A stretch of DNA of 32,230 nucleotides from an uncultured Alphaproteobacteria bacterium (GTDB taxonomy: Bacteria; Pseudomonadota; Alphaproteobacteria; Rs-D84; CACZYB01). The notes under the pieces are model-generated. The model was not told the origin of the DNA, searched no databases, and saw only the letters and a program-made list of their open reading frames with translations. The stretch is from the NCBI GenBank assembly GCA_944390685.1, contig CALXQL010000014.1, positions 1 through 32,230 on the forward strand. The letters run 5' to 3'. The position numbers and the translations under genes are program-made. Of this stretch, positions 5,870 through 32,230 are shown piece after piece; positions within the stretch are counted from its first letter, which is position 1; each line of letters opens with the position of its first letter.

Positions 5870-8524
5870 ATGACTGATTTAAAACTTTCAATAAATAATA
5901 TGGATAAAGAAGAAAAAAATTTAGAATTTTCCAATTTAAAACATAAATATAACGAATTTAATAAAAAATATGGTTTTCGTAAAATAAACCCATTATACAT
6001 ATATTTAACAGCCTCTATAATAAGTATAATATGGATAGCTCTTATATGGTATTATTCTGCAAATAGTATATATTCATGGGCATCATTAACAAAAATGCTT
6101 CCACATGAATTTGGTGGATTTTTAGCAGGCACCATAATGCCAATTGGATTCATATGGATGGTTGCATTATATATAGATAGAAATATAAATTCCAATTACG
6201 AACACGAAGTCATTTATCCATTTTTACAAAGCATCATTGATCCTCATGGGGACACATCTGTAATAACAAATGTCATAAAGAAAAAAATTGAAACCGAAAC
6301 AAATGAATTAAAAAATACAATTGAAACATTTGAAAACTTTTCAAATAAAATTGCCCAAATACATAATCAAATATCTTTAAATATAAAAGATGATGTATTA
6401 AATATGAAGGCACATGAACAAACCCTAAACCAAATTACAACAGAATTATATAAATCCACGACACAAAGCGACGATAAAACAAAACAAATACTAAATGATT
6501 TATCACAAAGCCTTGAAATATTAAATACAACAACCCAATCAATAGAAAATAAAACAAACTCTATAACAAATAACCTTATAACTCATACAAATAAGTTAGA
6601 AAATTCAATCGATGAATTAAATAAACAAAAGGAAAATATAGAAATATCTACTACAACCGCATTACAAAGAGCAACAGAAATTGCAAATACATTTTCAAAT
6701 ATCGGGGATAAATTGATTACTTCAAGTGAAATAGCAAACACCTACTCAAATCAAATTCTTGATAAAATTGATGAAAAAACAAATCTCTTTGTAATAAAAA
6801 GTAATATCTCGGCTGAAAGAATTGCAAATGTATCAAATGACCTAATATCCTCAATTGAAACAATAAACATTGTATCAAATGAAAATAAAAAATTGACATA
6901 CAATGCCCTTGAAAAAATATCAAATCAATCAAGTTTAATAACAAATAAATTAACAGAACAAACAAAACAATTTGAAAATAAAACATCTACAATACTTGAA
7001 ACAATAAACAATATTGAACATAAATTTAAGGATATAAATACTATCATCAAAGATATTTCAAATACAATCATTGATAACTTTAAAAATATTGGAAATGAAA
7101 TCAATTCACAAAAAGATAACCTTTTTGAAACTTCATCAATGGTTGCTGAAAATTTAAATAGTTTATCTTCCCAAATAATAAATGAAAAAGATAATTTCAT
7201 AAAATCTATTGAAGATGTAAAAAACATAACTATAAATACAACAGACGATATTACCACATCATCACAAAAAATACTATCATCAACAGAAAATATAAAATCT
7301 GTTGCAAATGAAATAAATAACCTTATGGAACAATCAAAAAGTAATTTATCCACCCAAGCAGAAACAAGTTTAAAATTTGCAACCGAAATAAGAACAACCT
7401 TAAAAAATCAAATAAATGATTTAGAAGAAATTGCAAACACCATATCAACTCAAACAAAATTGGGTGAAATTTCAATTGAAAAACAAGGGGAAAAATTATC
7501 ATCAATTGCCGAAGAATTATTCTTAAAAGTTGATACAATGAATGGAAAAATTTCCTCAACAATAAACAACATTTTAAACTTATCAAGCCAACTTGATGAA
7601 AAATTCACTTCCATGAACGACAATATATTACAAAAAACTTCAACAGCAACAAAAATAATAAATGATAATGTTGAACATACAATTGAACAATCAAATATAT
7701 TTAGAGGTATCTCATCTGACTTTGCAGAAAAATCCCGCAATATCAATCAACAAATATCAACATTGATAAATGAGTTAAAACAACAAACATTTGCACTTGA
7801 AAATACAACAAAACAAACAAAGGATTTAGTAAGCAATATTTCTTCTGAAATAATAAAAGCATCAAAAACTTTACCACAATTAAATAGTTCAATAAACGAA
7901 AACACTACTATATTAAGCGATGCAATAGATTTAACAAACCAAAAATCCAAACAAATAATTGAAAATCTAAATATGATAGGTAATCAATTTACAAAATTCA
8001 CAACACAAAAAACATCTGAAATTGAATACTTATCAAATAATTCTGCACAAGCTATTACAAAATTAGCAAACTATACAAATAAATTATCAAATGAATTAAA
8101 AACAAATCTTGATAAATTGAATACATTTACCTCATCTGAAAATACAAATATCACAAAACAACAAAGCGAAGATTTTTTAAATAAATCCAGTTATATAATT
8201 GAAAAATTAAATTCAATATCAATAGATTTGGCACAAATTTTATCACCTGAAATCACAGCTGAACTTTGGAGTAAATATAACAGCGGACATAAAAATGTAT
8301 TTTCAAAATACCTAAATCATATATTAAGCAAAAAGCAATTTACAAATTTATTGGAACTATATAACAATAACCAAGATTTCAAGGATTATACCAAAAGTTA
8401 TATAAGTGAATTTGATAATCTTATATTAAAAGCATCAAATACGGATAAAAGAGATATTTTACTTGCAACAATCACATCAACAGATCTTGGAAAAGCATAT
8501 ATGATATTAAAAGAAATAAAATAA
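5870..8524 (+). CDS. Large membrane-anchored coiled-coil protein
   Basis: An 884-residue protein with a cytoplasmic-looking N-terminus, two adjacent transmembrane segments (about 43-68 and 79-103), and then some 650 residues of almost continuous helical coiled coil rich in Asn, Ile, Thr, Glu, Lys and Ser. A compact C-terminal domain (about 790-884) contains ELWSKYNSGHKNVFSKYL and ends DLGKAYMILKEIK. The layout, two N-terminal membrane helices plus a giant coiled coil, resembles alphaproteobacterial polarity or envelope-organising proteins such as TipN, but I cannot assign a family. The C-terminal domain pattern seems conserved in alphaproteobacteria from memory, which is weak evidence. The start has AGGGG 11 bases upstream. 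It is divergent from the SPOR gene, and its stop codon abuts the stop of the SufT-like gene on the other strand with no base between. Confidence 0.75.
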   Translation: MTDLKLSINNMDKEEKNLEFSNLKHKYNEFNKKYGFRKINPLYIYLTASIISIIWIALIWYYSANSIYSWASLTKMLPHEFGGFLAGTIMPIGFIWMVALYIDRNINSNYEHEVIYPFLQSIIDPHGDTSVITNVIKKKIETETNELKNTIETFENFSNKIAQIHNQISLNIKDDVLNMKAHEQTLNQITTELYKSTTQSDDKTKQILNDLSQSLEILNTTTQSIENKTNSITNNLITHTNKLENSIDELNKQKENIEISTTTALQRATEIANTFSNIGDKLITSSEIANTYSNQILDKIDEKTNLFVIKSNISAERIANVSNDLISSIETINIVSNENKKLTYNALEKISNQSSLITNKLTEQTKQFENKTSTILETINNIEHKFKDINTIIKDISNTIIDNFKNIGNEINSQKDNLFETSSMVAENLNSLSSQIINEKDNFIKSIEDVKNITINTTDDITTSSQKILSSTENIKSVANEINNLMEQSKSNLSTQAETSLKFATEIRTTLKNQINDLEEIANTISTQTKLGEISIEKQGEKLSSIAEELFLKVDTMNGKISSTINNILNLSSQLDEKFTSMNDNILQKTSTATKIINDNVEHTIEQSNIFRGISSDFAEKSRNINQQISTLINELKQQTFALENTTKQTKDLVSNISSEIIKASKTLPQLNSSINENTTILSDAIDLTNQKSKQIIENLNMIGNQFTKFTTQKTSEIEYLSNNSAQAITKLANYTNKLSNELKTNLDKLNTFTSSENTNITKQQSEDFLNKSSYIIEKLNSISIDLAQILSPEITAELWSKYNSGHKNVFSKYLNHILSKKQFTNLLELYNNNQDFKDYTKSYISEFDNLILKASNTDKRDILLATITSTDLGKAYMILKEIK

Positions 8525-20867: not shown

Positions 20868-20883
20868 AAAGACCTCTTTTTAT
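20855..20883. terminator. Bidirectional terminator between pepA and the facing gene
   Basis: A perfect 10-bp stem AAAAGAGGTC/GACCTCTTTT (20855-20864 with 20871-20880) has a six-base loop that begins with the pepA stop codon. T-runs occur on both strands. The stem encodes the last residues of pepA and touches the stop codon of the facing gene. Confidence 0.85.
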
Positions 20884-21692
20884 CTACCATTATGATAATT
20901 AAACATTACTTGCCCTTCATCAAAATTAATAGGTCTTCTATCAAATTTAATGAGCAATTGATTACATTTATTAAGATTTTGTCGCAACTCTTCAACATTT
21001 CTGGAATTTCTAACAAAATAGAAGATAATATTTTCTTCAAATGTATGCAAAGACATACCAGCATATTTATAGAAATTAAACAATGATGTAAAAGCCATAT
21101 CATTAAGCACCAAAGGCTTAACATCTATTTCCCCATCACGATTCCAAGTATCAAAAACAAATTTATTATCTTTAAACTTTAATTTAAATATAGGATACAT
21201 AGGCGAATACTTAACAATAAAATCCATAGGATCTAAATCATCCCATTTTTTTAAATGAGCCTTATATTCATTATATTTCATAGAATAAGATTTTTGATAT
21301 ATATCCTTATCACTTTTAAAAACATCAGTTTTTTCAATACTTATATTAGCATGATTTAATAAATACATCATATAAAAATCAATAAATAATTCAAAAACTT
21401 CATTATAAAAATAATTATTTTTATTGCTTAAAACAAATGCTCTATCATTATAAAATTTGCTAAATCCTGGACAAATAGTATTCAAAAAAACAGAAGCATT
21501 ATAAGGAGTAATACTATCCCTAAATAATCCAGAGGAAATTATTTTAAATTCCGTTGAAAAAAATAAATCACTAACCCTATAAAATTTATCTTTTTTATTG
21601 AATTTATTATCTTTAATAACCTTTTTTAAATTCAAAAGAGCATTAAACAATTTTTGTTCAAAATTATCACTGGAAAAACTAACTTGCTTCAT
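20880..21692 (-). CDS. Orphan 270-residue protein, function unknown
   Basis: A soluble-looking protein without signal peptide or membrane segment, rich in Asn, Lys, Phe and Tyr. Aromatic residues are unusually frequent (for example YMMYLLNH, FYKYAGM, FYFVRN). Predicted structure is mostly helical, with a small strand region near FKLKFKDNKFVFDTWNRDGEI. No catalytic motif stands out. GAGAGG precedes the ATG, and its own promoter candidate contains a perfect TTGACA. It is transcriptionally isolated: a terminator sits upstream and another downstream, and it faces pepA tail to tail. I recognise no family; it may be lineage-specific. Confidence 0.7.
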   Translation of the reverse strand: MKQVSFSSDNFEQKLFNALLNLKKVIKDNKFNKKDKFYRVSDLFFSTEFKIISSGLFRDSITPYNASVFLNTICPGFSKFYNDRAFVLSNKNNYFYNEVFELFIDFYMMYLLNHANISIEKTDVFKSDKDIYQKSYSMKYNEYKAHLKKWDDLDPMDFIVKYSPMYPIFKLKFKDNKFVFDTWNRDGEIDVKPLVLNDMAFTSLFNFYKYAGMSLHTFEENIIFYFVRNSRNVEELRQNLNKCNQLLIKFDRRPINFDEGQVMFNYHNGR

Positions 21693-25944: not shown

Positions 25945-25973
25945 AAAAAAGACAGATAAAGATACCTGTCTTT
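25945..25973 (-). terminator. Terminator after the OmpA-type lipoprotein gene
   Basis: AAAGACAG/CTGTCTTT (25948-25955 with 25966-25973) has a ten-base loop and on the minus strand continues into TTTTTT. It is seven bases after the lipoprotein stop codon and about 18 bases before the recJ start. Confidence 0.85.
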
Positions 25974-25979
25974 ATAATA

Positions 25980-27104
25980 CTAATAAGTTATATAAATTTC
26001 TGTTCTTCTATTAACTGCTTCATTTATTGGCATATTTTCTTCAAGAATTTTTTCTGTATCAGAAACAGCATCAATAAAAATCTTATTTACAGGCACACCA
26101 TTTTTCACTAACACATCACGAACTTTTTGAGCACGAAGTAAAGATAAATCAAAATTTTTAAGTTTATTATCAATTTCCTTCATATTTTTTGTTCTACTGG
26201 AAGAATTACCAACAATTCTAACAGAAGCATCATGTTTTTTTATGAAATCAGCTACTTTTTTCAAAGCCTTAACATCCTTATTGGAAACATCAGCCTTAGT
26301 ATTAGAATGATAAACAATAGCACTTAAAAATGTAATAGAATCATTTTTCTTTTCTTCCACATCATCTTTTACATTAAGTTTAAAAGCTTTTTTATCTTTG
26401 ATATTTAAAGTTCTATTTTTTGGTTTAACATTATCAACTTTAATACCTCTTTTTTCTTGAGCTTGACGTACAGCACTTTCAAATTCATCATCATAATCAA
26501 CAACTTTTTGAGAAATCAATATATTATTTTCATTATCATTGATTGCATAGCTTTCATCAACCACATCAATTACAGCATCTTCTTGAGATGCGACTGGAAC
26601 ATCAATAACTTTCATATCATTATTGGAAGATAATTCTTCTTTTAATTTTAATATATCATCAGGAGACATATCTTCATCTTCTGGAAGTACTTTATGATCA
26701 ACCATATCATTATTTTCAGACTTTTCATCATCTTTTAATTGAGAATTTTGTAAATTTTCTTTTTTAACTTCTTTATCCTCAACTTTATTATCTACATTTT
26801 CAGCATTTTCTTTTTTATCTGTAATTGGATTTGTTGCATCTTCAATAACTTCTTCTTTATCCTCAACTATTTCAATTACATCTTCTGAATTTTCTTCTTT
26901 ATTTATATCCTCAATTTTCTTATCCAAAGAATGAGAAGGAGCATTAGGCACTTCCACTTCTTTTAAATCTTCCTTATATACAATATTTTGATCAATAAGA
27001 TCATTAGAATTTACAGGAACATCCGGATTAAAATCAGAAGAACAAGAAAGCACACTTCCCGCAAAAATAAATAATAATAAATATTTTTTAAACATAAGTT
27101 TCAT
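25980..27104 (-). CDS. OmpA-family lipoprotein with long acidic linker
   Basis: A 374-residue exported lipoprotein. It has a lipoprotein signal with lipobox VLSC, so Cys21 should be acylated. Ser at position +2 (not Asp) favours outer-membrane sorting. Residues 25-250 form a low-complexity linker rich in Glu, Asp, Lys, Asn and Val. The C-terminal OmpA-like domain (about 260-374) has LSLLRAQKVRDVLVKNGVP and ends EAVNRRTEIYITY; the NRR motif is the peptidoglycan (diaminopimelate)-contacting Arg region of the family. It therefore likely tethers outer membrane to cell wall, as Pal does, though it is about twice the length of Pal. GAGGG precedes the ATG. The linker shares LKDDEKS with the SPOR protein at 4925-5794. 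Confidence 0.88.
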   Translation of the reverse strand: MKLMFKKYLLLFIFAGSVLSCSSDFNPDVPVNSNDLIDQNIVYKEDLKEVEVPNAPSHSLDKKIEDINKEENSEDVIEIVEDKEEVIEDATNPITDKKENAENVDNKVEDKEVKKENLQNSQLKDDEKSENNDMVDHKVLPEDEDMSPDDILKLKEELSSNNDMKVIDVPVASQEDAVIDVVDESYAINDNENNILISQKVVDYDDEFESAVRQAQEKRGIKVDNVKPKNRTLNIKDKKAFKLNVKDDVEEKKNDSITFLSAIVYHSNTKADVSNKDVKALKKVADFIKKHDASVRIVGNSSSRTKNMKEIDNKLKNFDLSLLRAQKVRDVLVKNGVPVNKIFIDAVSDTEKILEENMPINEAVNRRTEIYITY

Positions 27105-27190: not shown

Positions 27191-27877
27191 TTATTTTTTA
27201 ATAAATGAAAGATATATAGGAATTCTGCCTTCTTTTAAGGCCTTTTGTTCATATTTAGTAGTTTCCCAATCCAAAGGAACATTTACAAAATCAGCAGATT
27301 TAGAAACATTCCAAATGAAATCTTTTTGATTCTGCATACAAAACAAAACCCATGGAATATATATAGGATGATCACTAACCACCAACATTTCAGCATTTTT
27401 TTTAAGTATTCTACTAAAAATTTTCAAATTTTCTAAATTTACCATACGCCTATCTTGATTTCTATTTTTAGGCCAAGGATCCGGATACAAAATAAAAAGT
27501 CTATCAAAAGATTCGTTTTTCAAAAAAGGAAATAGTAAATTGACATCATCTGGAAAAATACGAATATTTTTAATATCATTATCCAATATTTTTTTTAATA
27601 TAGAGGCATTACCGTTCATAAAAACCTCTGTTCCAATAAAGGCTATATCTGGATTTTTAATTGCCATATTGATAAGATGATCACCATCACCATAACCTAT
27701 CTCAAACACGAATGAAGAAGGCTTAAAATCAAATAATTCAAACAAATCAATTTTACTATTATTTTTAGGAAGAGTTATTTGAAATTTCGGCATAAAGGAG
27801 GTAATTAAATTCTCTTTTGCTTTACTCATGCCCTTACCTTTTCGTCTTCCAAAAAAAGTTTTTTGCTTAAATTCCAT
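27191..27877 (-). CDS. trmB: tRNA (guanine-N7-)-methyltransferase
   Basis: Methylates G46 in the variable loop of tRNAs using S-adenosylmethionine. It is 228 residues, the typical size. Seen: the SAM-binding GYGDGDHLINMAIKNP (FEIGYGDG), the Glu of FIGTEVF, the family motif YPDPWPKNRNQDRRM and the late TTKYEQKALKEGRIP. The N-terminus carries the basic FFGRRKGKGM stretch common in this family. It starts one base after the HD-domain gene stop codon and is last in a three-gene run. The intact PDPWPK and TKYE motifs make the assignment firm. Confidence 0.96.
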   Translation of the reverse strand: MEFKQKTFFGRRKGKGMSKAKENLITSFMPKFQITLPKNNSKIDLFELFDFKPSSFVFEIGYGDGDHLINMAIKNPDIAFIGTEVFMNGNASILKKILDNDIKNIRIFPDDVNLLFPFLKNESFDRLFILYPDPWPKNRNQDRRMVNLENLKIFSRILKKNAEMLVVSDHPIYIPWVLFCMQNQKDFIWNVSKSADFVNVPLDWETTKYEQKALKEGRIPIYLSFIKK

Positions 27878-27878
27878 T

Positions 27879-28658
27879 TTATAAACTCACCATATTTTTT
27901 ACCAAATTAACATCATCATTTGATGCACCAAATTTAACAAATTGATCCAACATAAAATCAAAATATCCAATAGATTTTATTTTAGATTTTGTATAATCAA
28001 AATAAATATCATTAATCCAAAATATTACATCAGCAATCATATCAGCCCCAGTTTTTATATATCTTCTATCTACAATAGATTTTTGCAATACTATATTTTT
28101 AACTTCTTGTGATAAAGGAGCTATATCAACATTTTTACTAAATATAGGATAACCATGCATAACAAAATTTTGCATATTTTCAAATTTATCTGCATCACGA
28201 AGCAATTTTGCAATTATATCTGCATTTTTTTTATTTTCTTCATTCAAAGAAACAAAGAAAGGAGAATTATAATCTATTTGCATTAAATCATGAGAAGCAA
28301 TTGCAAAAAATAATAAATCATCATTAATCAAAGAGGATTTTTTAACTATCTCAACGGATTTCAAACCATGTTTAAAAATATGATTAGGAATGAAATTACC
28401 CTTTTCATCAAATTGTAAAAAGCGAGCAATATCATGAAGCACACCAGCACTTTCAACTATATGCTTAAACTTAAATTTAAAATTTGCATCAATTGATTTT
28501 TCAAAAAACATTATATCAAGAATTGTATTTGCCACAGCAAAAGTATGTTTAACTTTATGATTGAAATAACAAAAAACATCATCTCTTTGTGGCATTTTCT
28601 TTAATTGAGAAAAATACACATCTAAAAATAATTTTGTAATTTTATCAATGAATTCCAT
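27879..28658 (-). CDS. HD-domain phosphohydrolase-like protein
   Basis: A 259-residue soluble protein with the HD superfamily metal pattern: His38 in NHKVKHTFAVA, the doublet His75-Asp76 in GVLHDIARF, His97 in NHIFKHGLKS, His123-Asp124 in ASHDLM, and Asp155 or Asp157 in LLRDADKFEN. This five- to six-ligand pattern fits an active mono- or dinuclear phosphohydrolase acting on a nucleotide or other phosphate ester; the substrate is unknown. The layout resembles YfbR/HDc-type proteins more than HD-GYP. It begins nine bases after the membrane protein gene and couples to trmB with a one-base gap, so all three should be co-expressed. Confidence 0.85.
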   Translation of the reverse strand: MEFIDKITKLFLDVYFSQLKKMPQRDDVFCYFNHKVKHTFAVANTILDIMFFEKSIDANFKFKFKHIVESAGVLHDIARFLQFDEKGNFIPNHIFKHGLKSVEIVKKSSLINDDLLFFAIASHDLMQIDYNSPFFVSLNEENKKNADIIAKLLRDADKFENMQNFVMHGYPIFSKNVDIAPLSQEVKNIVLQKSIVDRRYIKTGADMIADVIFWINDIYFDYTKSKIKSIGYFDFMLDQFVKFGASNDDVNLVKNMVSL

Positions 28659-28667
28659 AATTCCTCA

Positions 28668-30137
28668 CTAATAATAAATAATAAATAAAATAACAATAAT
28701 AATCAATAAAGTTGTTATATGATTAACTATTGGAAGGACTGAATTTTTAAATATTGAAAAAATTTCAACATTTTGTTTTGCCTTATTTTCCAATACATCA
28801 ATTAAATTTAACCCAATAATAGAAATAAAAGAAGTAATAAAAATAAGTCCAAAAATGAACGATGAAAGCACTTCATAATCTATATATGGATAAAGCAAAT
28901 AAAGACATATAGAAAATAATACGATATATAAAAGGCTTCTAAAAAACAAATAAAATTTCTTATTATTTATTTGAATAAACTTAACTAAATTAACAATTTT
29001 AAGTATATTAAATAAAACCAATACCATACTTAAAATAAAACCTAAAATCACATTTACAGAAAAAATATTTATATTTACCTTATGTTTAAGTAAAAATTCC
29101 AATGTTTCAAAAAAGATATAAAATAAAACAATATTATTGATAGTTTTTGCCACATATTTAAACGATTCGGAATAATTTTCATTAACATTATCAAAAATAA
29201 GAAAGAAACATCCCCCCACCATGGAAAGACATATTAAACCCAACCCATAAAATTTTCCAAATGTAATTGCAATTGAAATACTTGCTAACATAATAATACC
29301 TACCCAAAACGATGAAGAAACTACATTTGAAATATTATATAAATAAGGTAGTAAAACAGGCATTTTTTTTCTATTAACTAATTGTTTTTTATTCAAATAG
29401 GTTGAAACTTTCATAATGATATAAGAAGTCAAAATACCAATCATCATAACTAAAAATATATTATAAGAAATAGAAAACAAATACACACAAATAAAAGAAG
29501 ATAAAATAAATGTAAAAATTTGATAAAAATCATTAAAATAAATCTGGAACTTATTACTTTTCTTAATAACAAAACTTTTTAATAAAAGTCCAATATTTGA
29601 TAACAATAAGAAAATCACACTGATAAAGAAAGGTAAATTGATAAGAGTTGATCTTTTAATATCCACACCAAAATATCTTGTAATATCAACGGTTGTAATT
29701 TGAGAAGCAAGTATTGCACAGGTCTGAGTTAAAATCACCATCATCAAAAAATTATCCATACTTTTTAAAAATAAAGAAATAATAAATTTTGAATTTTTGG
29801 CATCAAACTTGATGAAAATATTTATAATTTTAATTATAATATTAAAAGCAATCAATCCTGCCATAATCAACAAAGAAGATAAAATTCCATCTAAATCACC
29901 AAAATAATTATCATAAAGGAAATATAAAACTACAATAGTTAATAAAGAAAATAAACTGCTATAAAATTGCATAAAATTTAATTTCAAAGATTCGTTTAAA
30001 GAATCAAAAACATTCTTCTTTTTGATTCGTTTAAAAAGTAAAACAAAAAACATTCCAACTAATTCAAAGGAAAATATTCCAAAAGCAAGTTTCATCAAAT
30101 TAAAAACATACTCAAAGGATAAGTCAGAAAGAATCAT
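28668..30137 (-). CDS. Polytopic membrane protein, probably a degenerate membrane pyrophosphatase homologue
   Basis: A 489-residue protein with about 13-15 membrane segments and hardly any soluble loops. By eye, stretches follow H+-translocating pyrophosphatase (HppA) in order: LPFFISVIFLLLSNIGLLLKS like the family's YPL-IS--GI-ASI-GT; MMIGILTSYIIMKVSTYLNKK like the helix ending in ITEYYT; KFYGLGLICLSMVGG like the LFGIA---VSML helix; and SIFKNSVLPIVNHITTL like PFKDTAGPA-NP-IK near the C-terminus. The catalytic motifs are missing: no DNVGDNVGD loop, only FDNVNENYSE where D-YGP--DNAGG is expected, and no GGAWDNAKK. It is also about 180 residues shorter than HppA. If the homology holds, it cannot hydrolyse pyrophosphate in the known way. 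It is first in a run with the HD protein and trmB; AGGAG precedes the ATG. Confidence 0.55.
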   Translation of the reverse strand: MILSDLSFEYVFNLMKLAFGIFSFELVGMFFVLLFKRIKKKNVFDSLNESLKLNFMQFYSSLFSLLTIVVLYFLYDNYFGDLDGILSSLLIMAGLIAFNIIIKIINIFIKFDAKNSKFIISLFLKSMDNFLMMVILTQTCAILASQITTVDITRYFGVDIKRSTLINLPFFISVIFLLLSNIGLLLKSFVIKKSNKFQIYFNDFYQIFTFILSSFICVYLFSISYNIFLVMMIGILTSYIIMKVSTYLNKKQLVNRKKMPVLLPYLYNISNVVSSSFWVGIIMLASISIAITFGKFYGLGLICLSMVGGCFFLIFDNVNENYSESFKYVAKTINNIVLFYIFFETLEFLLKHKVNINIFSVNVILGFILSMVLVLFNILKIVNLVKFIQINNKKFYLFFRSLLYIVLFSICLYLLYPYIDYEVLSSFIFGLIFITSFISIIGLNLIDVLENKAKQNVEIFSIFKNSVLPIVNHITTLLIIIVILFIIYY

Positions 30138-30272: not shown

Positions 30273-31670
30273 ATGATTTTAAATAGTATCACTATCGCAA
30301 ATAAAGAAATTTTACCATTAATTGAAGGTGGAAAGGGAATAAATATATCAACTGGCCTTACCTCTGGATTATGGGCAAATTGCGGTGGTGCTGGAACATT
30401 TTCTGGTGTAAATCCTGATTTTTACGATGAAAATGGTAATTATGTAAAACCAATTTTCAATGGAAAATCAAGACAAGAACGCCAAAAAGAATTAATAGAT
30501 TACGGGATAAGAGGTTGCCTTGACCAAGCAAAAATTGCTCATGAACAATCAAACGGAAATGGTTTAGTTTTCATGAATATCCTATGGGAACAAGGTGGGG
30601 CACAAGAACTTTTAACAAATGTATTAGAAAGAGCAAAAGGCACTATAAAGGCAATATCCTGTGGTGCTGGTATGCCATTTAAACTTGCTGAAATCTGTGC
30701 AAAAAATAAGGTATTTTATAACCCAATCATATCTTCGGCAAGGGCACTACAACTTTTATGGAAACGCTCATATTGTAAATTTAAGGAATGGATTGGTGCT
30801 GTAATATATGAGGATCCATGGCTTGCAGGTGGTCATAATGGACTATCCAATACAGATGATCCACTTACCCCTGAAAAACCTATGTCCAGATTATTGGAAA
30901 TAAGAAAATTCATGAATGAAGTAGGATTGAAAAGTGTTCCAATAATAGTTGCAGGCGGAATATGGTGGCTATCCGAATGGCTAGATTATATTGATAATAA
31001 AGAATTAGGTCCAATTGGATTTCAATTTGGAACTCGTCCTATGGTAACACAAGAAAGTCCACTTGCCATGGAAGTGAAACAAAAGTTATTAAATGTGGAA
31101 AAAGGTGGAGTAAAACTTCAAAAATTCAGTCCAACTGGTTTATACTCATCTGCTGTTGAAAATAAATTCTTAAAGGAATTGGAAAACCAATTGACCCGCC
31201 AAATACCATTTGTTGAAATACAAGATAAGGGTATAGGATTTGACATTCCTGTTGAACTAACTGCAAATAAAAAAACAGTTTATATAAATCAAGGGGATAA
31301 AGATCGCCTAAACAAATTTATAAATGATGGTTATACCTCAATTTTGAAAACACCATCAAACACATTACTATTTGTAAATAATGAAAGATATAATAATATA
31401 ATGACAGGTATGAGGGATTGTGTTGGCTGTCTTTCAAGTTGTTTATTTTCCGCATGGACCCAAAGGGAAGGAATGACTATTCAACCAGATCCAAGAAGTT
31501 TTTGTATTCAAAAATCATTACAAAACATTTCACATACAAATGATGCAGAAAATAATCTATTATTTTCCGGACAAATAGTATATAGATTTAAGGAAGATCC
31601 ATTTTATAAAAATGGAACATTCATCCCAACTATAAAGGAATTATTTGAACAAATAAAAACCGGATACTAA
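30273..31670 (+). CDS. Nitronate monooxygenase-type FMN flavoprotein
   Basis: A 465-residue member of the nitronate monooxygenase/2-nitropropane dioxygenase superfamily, a TIM-barrel family that binds FMN. Seen: an N-terminal LIEGGKGINISTG, a Gly-rich SCGAGMP (129-135), the family's GGHNG (186-190) at the position of the catalytic-site His region, the phosphate-binding VAGGIWW (226-232) and FQFGTRP. The barrel ends at about residue 300. The extra C-terminal part contains Cys383, Cys386, Cys390 and Cys411 in DCVGCLSSC and SFCIQ, a spacing that could bind a metal or Fe-S cluster. Nitronate activity is not proven for this long subgroup, which may use another substrate. GGG precedes the ATG. It is a single-gene unit with promoter and terminator. 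Confidence 0.88.
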   Translation: MILNSITIANKEILPLIEGGKGINISTGLTSGLWANCGGAGTFSGVNPDFYDENGNYVKPIFNGKSRQERQKELIDYGIRGCLDQAKIAHEQSNGNGLVFMNILWEQGGAQELLTNVLERAKGTIKAISCGAGMPFKLAEICAKNKVFYNPIISSARALQLLWKRSYCKFKEWIGAVIYEDPWLAGGHNGLSNTDDPLTPEKPMSRLLEIRKFMNEVGLKSVPIIVAGGIWWLSEWLDYIDNKELGPIGFQFGTRPMVTQESPLAMEVKQKLLNVEKGGVKLQKFSPTGLYSSAVENKFLKELENQLTRQIPFVEIQDKGIGFDIPVELTANKKTVYINQGDKDRLNKFINDGYTSILKTPSNTLLFVNNERYNNIMTGMRDCVGCLSSCLFSAWTQREGMTIQPDPRSFCIQKSLQNISHTNDAENNLLFSGQIVYRFKEDPFYKNGTFIPTIKELFEQIKTGY

Positions 31671-31938: not shown

Positions 31939-32230
31939 ATGAATTACAAAAAAATAATATATCTAATACTTATATTTTATATCTCACTATCAAATAAAGT
32001 TAATTGTGCAACAACATCTCAACTTAAATCAGTATTGGAAAAATATGGTGTTCCATATACAAGTGATTGTGGAACATTAAATGAAGCTCATTTCAATGGC
32101 TCCAAACCAGAATGCCAACAATTGGGTATGTTTTATAATAAATCTAAACGAAGATGTGAACCTTGCCCTCTTGGAACTGCAACTGATACTAAAACTGATA
32201 CTTCTTGTAAAGATATTGTATGTCCTAATG
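31939..32230 (+). CDS. Secreted Cys-rich protein, N-terminal part
   Basis: Cut by the window end; 97 codons are visible. The signal peptide is about residues 1-24 (MNYKKIIYLILIFYISLSNK, then VNCA). The mature part begins with a short helical region, SQLKSVLEKYGVPY. A Cys-rich region follows with FYNKSKRRCEPCPLGTATD and a further Cys about every 5-20 residues; the CxxCPxGT pattern resembles the extracellular Cys-rich repeats of surface proteins (GCC2/GCC3, TNFR-like). Disulfide-bonded export to the surface is likely. GGGG lies ten bases before the ATG and can be masked by the leader RNA described separately. Family and full length cannot be judged from this fragment. Confidence 0.8.
   Translation, partial: MNYKKIIYLILIFYISLSNKVNCATTSQLKSVLEKYGVPYTSDCGTLNEAHFNGSKPECQQLGMFYNKSKRRCEPCPLGTATDTKTDTSCKDIVCPN

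Follow-up and report, generated by a model that had tools for sequence, protein, structure and literature searches.

Membrane pyrophosphatases (mPPases) are textbook primary pumps, and the locus described here raises the question of what a protein can be, and do, when it follows the helices of such a pump but has lost its substrate loops. The gene lies in a window (the whole stretch of DNA analysed, 32,230 nucleotides) that is contig 14 of a small (929-kb) genome of a gut-type alphaproteobacterium (25 contigs, 97.55% complete). Working from the letters of the window, the original prediction had proposed a non-catalytic relative of HppA, encoded together with an HD-domain phosphohydrolase and trmB. 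A literature search for a catalytically dead mPPase lineage or family found no report of one.

Gene order at the locus

The following features of the window define the locus.

25948-25973, minus strand: hairpin resembling a terminator, 3' of the OmpA-like gene and perhaps the end of the operon (consensus match only)
25980-27104, minus strand: OmpA-like protein with a signal peptide and a lipobox-like start (lipobox by eye), next gene of the run
27191-27877, minus strand: trmB, tRNA (guanine-N7)-methyltransferase
27879-28658, minus strand: HD-domain metal-dependent phosphohydrolase, 259 aa, ligand pattern H38/H75-D76/H97/H123/D157 invariant in 9/9
28668-30137, minus strand: degenerate membrane pyrophosphatase homologue, 489 aa, 14 predicted TM helices that are counterparts of TM1 and TM4-TM16
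30273-31670, plus strand: divergent nitronate monooxygenase/FabK-like (NMO/FabK-like) gene, a neighbour shared with relatives and found near the canonical mPPase of genome G012

The open reading frame of the membrane protein has its limits exactly at 28668 and 30137 and encodes its 489 residues without an internal stop; by eye, a candidate ribosome site (AGGAG) precedes its ATG, within the 135-base gap to the divergent gene. The HD gene follows 3' on the same strand after 9 bases and trmB after 1 more, the arrangement that had been predicted, and beyond trmB come the OmpA-like lipoprotein gene, the terminator-like hairpin, recJ and a lytic transglycosylase gene. Open frames occupy this position in independent genomes as well, which rules out an artefact of assembly or annotation. 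Elsewhere in the window, the frames at 5870-8524 (plus strand, 884 aa) and 20880-21692 (minus strand, 270 aa) have no Pfam match at E 0.001.

Relationship to membrane pyrophosphatases

Searched alone, the window protein matched neither Pfam nor the PDB sequences, and in NCBIfam it gave a weak match to NF001961 (Na+-translocating pyrophosphatase; E 4.6e-4, residues 143-308). Six short orthologues were scanned with the H_PPase profile PF03030 (curated cut-off 29.7 bits): two passed the cut-off (G003 at 1e-7 and G005 at 7.8e-9), G002 matched at 3.1e-6, under the cut-off, and an H_PPase match was absent from G001, G010 and G008. When the eight complete family members were compared as a profile with seven canonical mPPases (hhalign), the match had an E-value of 1.4e-10 over 351 columns and a score of 88.7, which fell to 23.9 when the columns were reversed and to no more than 19.4 and 20.7 when they were shuffled 40 times locally and 40 times in full, respectively, a drop that rules out chance resemblance at the profile level. 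Among the PDB sequences, mPPases came up for this eight-row profile with E-values no better than 1.2-2.2. The sequence link to mPPases is made firm by orthologues and relatives, not by the window protein on its own.

An AlphaFold2 model built from the eight-row alignment (mean pLDDT 81.4, pTM 0.85) has the mPPase fold. A Foldseek search of the PDB placed mPPases at ranks 1-29, and these were the only matches at E 1e-3 or better; in VIA-align, 21 mPPase entries scored Z 23.5-28.5, the best being 6qxa_D (Z 28.5, 464 of 489 residues aligned, 3.7 A). The next fold, an unrelated one, scored Z 9.8, which rules out another transporter family or a chance resemblance. Model and alignment give 14 helices, against 16 in mPPases, and the mPPase-like order of helices noticed at first reading holds. 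Of the Lys and Arg residues, 31 fall on the predicted cytosolic side and 7 on the periplasmic one, and each of the eight rows repeats the pattern; this positive-inside distribution supports the mPPase orientation and an N-out topology.

Loss of the hydrolytic machinery and the ion gate

Losses were mapped in all eight complete family members with the canonical mPPase of G012 as the reference, using the site numbering of PMC6882861. Every member has lost TM2-TM3, a stretch of 76 residues, together with 19 residues from TM5. The 11-12 loop (34 residues, with its DNAGG) is gone, the 5-6 loop is incomplete, and segments of the 13-14 and 15-16 loops are missing too; altogether 239 canonical residues are missing from every member, 44 of which belong to an N-terminal extension of the G012 frame that is itself questionable. 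The window protein is 187 residues shorter than the 676-aa G012 protein (from L025:6083), close to the estimate of about 180 made beforehand. The site alignment and the loss map also confirm that DNVGDNVGD, DNAGG, GGAWDNAKK and GDTVGDP are gone, as had been reported for the window protein, and extend this loss of motifs to all eight complete members.

The hydrolytic centre is not retained: canonical residues occupy 11 of 120 alignment cells (15 sites in 8 proteins), at most three per protein. Hydrolysis or binding of PPi through relocated residues would have to build on these scattered positions and on the Asn of GNTT, which aligns in six of the eight members at a deletion edge, where the alignment is uncertain; since every member either lacks or has substitutions in the two metal-binding Asp clusters and the 11-12 loop, we regard such residual activity as extremely improbable. 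Because TM2-TM3, half of TM5 and the substrate and metal loops are lost, the window protein, as far as its sequence tells, cannot hydrolyse PPi or pump with it by the published mPPase mechanism. It is almost certain that the product of 28668-30137 is a catalytically dead mPPase, and the proposal of a non-catalytic HppA relative is supported by profile, fold and site-by-site comparison.

Three codons mark what has become of the old ion gate and its surroundings.

28710-28712, minus strand: Thr476, counterpart of the gate Lys K16.50, Thr in 8/8
29166-29168, minus strand: Glu324, counterpart of K12.50, Glu/Asp in 8/8, beside a deletion scar and so in less certain register
29754-29756, minus strand: Asp128, counterpart of ion-gate D6.50, kept in 8/8

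D6.50 is the sole catalytic or gate residue that all eight members retain, while R5.50, E6.53 and K16.50 are kept in none: R5.50 is deleted in every member, and the position of E6.53 is hydrophobic, Ala or Ser. One reading of this pattern is a non-hydrolytic transporter or channel, in which the inner ring and D6.50 would form a path for ions or small solutes without PPi, for example as a passive or gradient-driven exchanger. It would draw on D6.50 and the invariant T16.50, both at the old ion gate, on the counterparts of all inner-ring helices in the model, and on the conservation of the periplasmic half (below), which is the old exit side. Since R5.50, K16.50 and E6.53 are lost in all eight, however, the known gate network is gone, and few invariant charged residues are left inside the membrane; we therefore consider a transporter unlikely.

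Relatives and a possible route of descent

The family is present in 9 of the 11 genomes of the window's bacterial family, always as open frames: in all six genomes of genus g1, where the G004 copy is split over two contigs, and in all three of genus g4. Complete members have 463-493 aa, and identity falls to 20% across the two genera. The gene was not found in G006 or G007; G007 is 77% complete and trmB was likewise not found there, and in G006 the absence is clean, with the NMO-like and HD genes about 60 bases apart (L069:5806-5866). Across 201 genomes of the order, other convincing mPPase-like proteins occur only in G012 and G016.

Wider searches yielded little. The window protein matched nothing in the named genomes, and query A1 found eight loci there, which we take to be from genomes already in the sampled set; against 385 genomes of the class, A1 exceeded 68 bits only in the window's own genome. 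Weak matches in the f5 genomes G122 and G137, which contain stops, and a match in G055 at E 0.1 were taken as chance. In 16 chosen genomes, PF03030 matches were mostly long frames or contig-edge pieces, with two short pieces in G246, one 82-residue piece in G551 and none in three genomes.

G012 carries an intact mPPase with every motif, near an NMO/FabK-like gene in the same relative orientation as in the window, with two genes between them, one nudix-like (by eye) and one for a family II PPase. G016 encodes a full-length but half-degraded mPPase of 751 aa (L024:6163-8418, minus strand; PF03030, 372 bits). It keeps 12 of the 15 hydrolytic sites, with D5.65, E5.76, D6.43 and the coupling residue D11.50 replaced; in PMC6882861, D6.43 is said to be one of the Asp pair that activates water. 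For all its difference in length and in hydrolytic sites, the G016 protein shares with the short family a stretch of the form VDI(S/T)R..VDI.R..LI (A2).

In the tree, the short family (f1) groups together with support of 100/100 and the canonical group stands apart from G016 with 98/91, so that G016 is placed between the short family and the canonical pumps, on branches long enough to call for caution. The tree is compatible with a single origin of degeneration in G016 and the short family, a reading qualified by these long branches and by unusual composition. By comparison with the G012 locus beside its NMO-like gene, the gene in the window may have descended in place from a chromosomal mPPase, a step that we hold only jointly with the best overall explanation given below. 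With a graded series of intact, half-degraded and stripped proteins, one could ask which parts of the pump are dispensable to a membrane barrel that stays useful, and what becomes of the function of an ion-pump scaffold deprived of its energy source.

Selection and an apparent shift of constraint

Estimated by the Nei-Gojobori method, dN/dS of the membrane protein was 0.09 for G003-G005, 0.17 for G002-G004 (partial) and 0.19 for G001-G002, and that of TrmB in the same three pairs was 0.11-0.14 (for G003-G005, 0.14 for TrmB and 0.30 for HD); more distant pairs of the membrane protein gave 0.19-0.49 or, through saturation, undefined values. The close pairs are under purifying selection and the gene is plainly constrained, though at larger distances it changes faster than TrmB: across the genus, identity to G000 is 35-52% for the membrane protein vs 67-70% for TrmB. 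Because of this faster change, and because G006 lacks the gene, the role of the membrane protein is not essential everywhere.

These data bear on whether the protein is a slowly decaying relict with no positive role, on which selection would only guard against misfolding or leaking as the gene disappears. Decay is suggested by how fast the protein diverges within the genus, by its shrinkage, by the clean absence in G006 and by the half-degraded form in G016. A neutral gene so diverged would, however, be expected to be broken, whereas nine genomes in two genera keep open frames; the low dN/dS of the closest pairs and a set of invariant residues specific to the family point the same way, and we think a relict rather improbable.

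Where the constraint falls was examined by splitting the model helices into halves and assigning loops to sides, with the start Met not counted as invariant. One stretch stands among the most conserved of the family.

29628-29699, minus strand: residues 147-170, the 6-7 loop and the start of TM7, predicted periplasmic

Invariant positions of the family number 21 of 243 on the periplasmic side and 6 of 246 on the cytosolic side (p 0.003), with mean entropies of 1.37 and 1.71, respectively; at the same positions, the canonical pumps have 45 of 234 and 95 of 244 (p 2e-6). Since the bias could stem in part from the scars that deletions have left on the cytosolic side, we also ran a strict test, using helix residues only and leaving out gap-adjacent columns. 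Entropy still differed (periplasmic 1.40, cytosolic 1.61; p 0.005), and of the 14 helices, 10 were more conserved in their periplasmic half, compared with 1 in canonical pumps; invariant counts alone were not significant (15/193 vs 5/154, p 0.10). Taken by genus, g4 has a side bias on its own (p 0.02) and g1 does not (p 0.26). Constraint thus appears to be reversed, with the canonical pumps conserved on the cytosolic side and the short family on the periplasmic side.

The HD-domain neighbour

The HD protein belongs to PF01966 (33.8 bits, cut-off 22), and the invariance of its ligand residues in all nine sequences agrees with the view that its active site is intact. In eight of the nine genomes that encode the membrane protein, the HD gene comes directly after it; for the split gene of G004 this means after the C-terminal piece, with which HD shares a contig. 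Its model (pLDDT 93.4) scored Z 14.1 in VIA with PPX/GppA C-terminal domains and Z 11.6 with HD hydrolases including YpgQ, top scores too close together for a substrate to be named from the predicted fold. Foldseek with this model found nothing at E 1e-3 or better, the HD profile nothing below E 0.06 among the PDB sequences, and PHROGs nothing useful for either the HD or the membrane protein.

HD relatives occur in 10 of 385 genomes of the class, the window's own included, and outside the family they are not adjacent to mPPases where positions can be compared: in G542 one HD gene lies about 13 kb from the mPPase gene, and in G247, G466 and G399 the two are on different contigs. The coupling to an HD enzyme proposed from the window is real as a conserved neighbourhood, but weaker than stated. 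Because G006 has HD-trmB without the membrane protein, and G008 the membrane protein and trmB without HD, the pair is a lineage habit and not an obligate unit. The same two genomes count against a dedicated partnership, in which the membrane protein would anchor or gate the HD enzyme as a membrane-bound hydrolase of a nucleotide signal; adjacency in most genomes and the invariant ligand residues would suit such a partnership, but conservation is lower among residues of the cytosolic side, to which HD would have to bind, and we judge it improbable.

Host pyrophosphate metabolism and a possible periplasm-facing role

No second, active mPPase that the protein might regulate was found in the window's own genome. 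Among the 11 genomes of the family, family I soluble PPase (PF00719) was found in none and a DHHA2 / family II PPase in 10, the exception being the fragmentary G004. The window's own genome encodes a Mn-dependent family II enzyme (L071:5696-6631, plus strand; G000:C3) that scores 374 bits with NCBIfam NF003877 (cut-off 283), and because of its presence the loss of mPPase catalysis is tolerable. Two genes away, with a methionine aminopeptidase-like gene (by eye) between, lies a phosphofructokinase gene (L071:3665-4792, minus strand) whose top-scoring NCBIfam model is that of the ATP-dependent type (313 bits vs 253).

Like HppA, as represented by the Thermotoga maritima and Vigna radiata structures, the window protein has the same fold over almost the whole model, the same helix order, D6.50 and an N-out topology; unlike it, at 489 rather than 676 aa it is without TM2-TM3, half of TM5 and the substrate loops, and the short family has lost its hydrolytic residues and shifted its conservation to the periplasmic half. 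Pseudoenzymes in general are dead paralogues that regulate or scaffold, and the short family resembles them in having lost catalytic residues while fold and gene are kept under selection; it differs in that the window's genome has no active mPPase, as far as was found, for the protein to regulate.

The best overall explanation, which in our estimate is about evenly balanced between right and wrong, would be a pseudoenzyme that descended in place, is kept for its membrane body and faces the periplasm. Its ancestor would have been a chromosomal mPPase whose fold was kept as a 14-helix bundle while the engine parts were lost. The soluble family II enzyme may have made hydrolysis dispensable, leaving the protein to be kept for its membrane body, and the periplasmic face would be the working side, a receptor or scaffold to which a ligand or a partner in the envelope would bind. 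The former central cavity (D6.50, T16.50, E12.50) could be a remnant or a minor conduction site.

Because the cytosolic engine is lost and the periplasmic side is under the stronger constraint, a periplasm-facing receptor or scaffold fits best, followed by a PPi-independent transporter and then by slow decay, and we propose a periplasm-facing, non-hydrolytic role tentatively. Stated for the whole group, and with somewhat less than even confidence, this may be an mPPase-derived pseudoenzyme family of reduced-genome alphaproteobacteria that has discarded the PPi engine along with two helices and now works from the opposite, periplasmic face, whether as receptor, scaffold or PPi-independent transporter, with G016 as a living half-way form and G012 as an intact pump of the ancestral type. 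Short H_PPase matches in small genomes need not be pumps.

The window's genome also encodes two related short, secreted, Cys-rich frames (window 31939-32229, plus strand, and L071:6988-7380, plus strand), which are 73% alike; with their repeats like CPxGTATDxKTDTxCK, they look like a small paralogous surface family.
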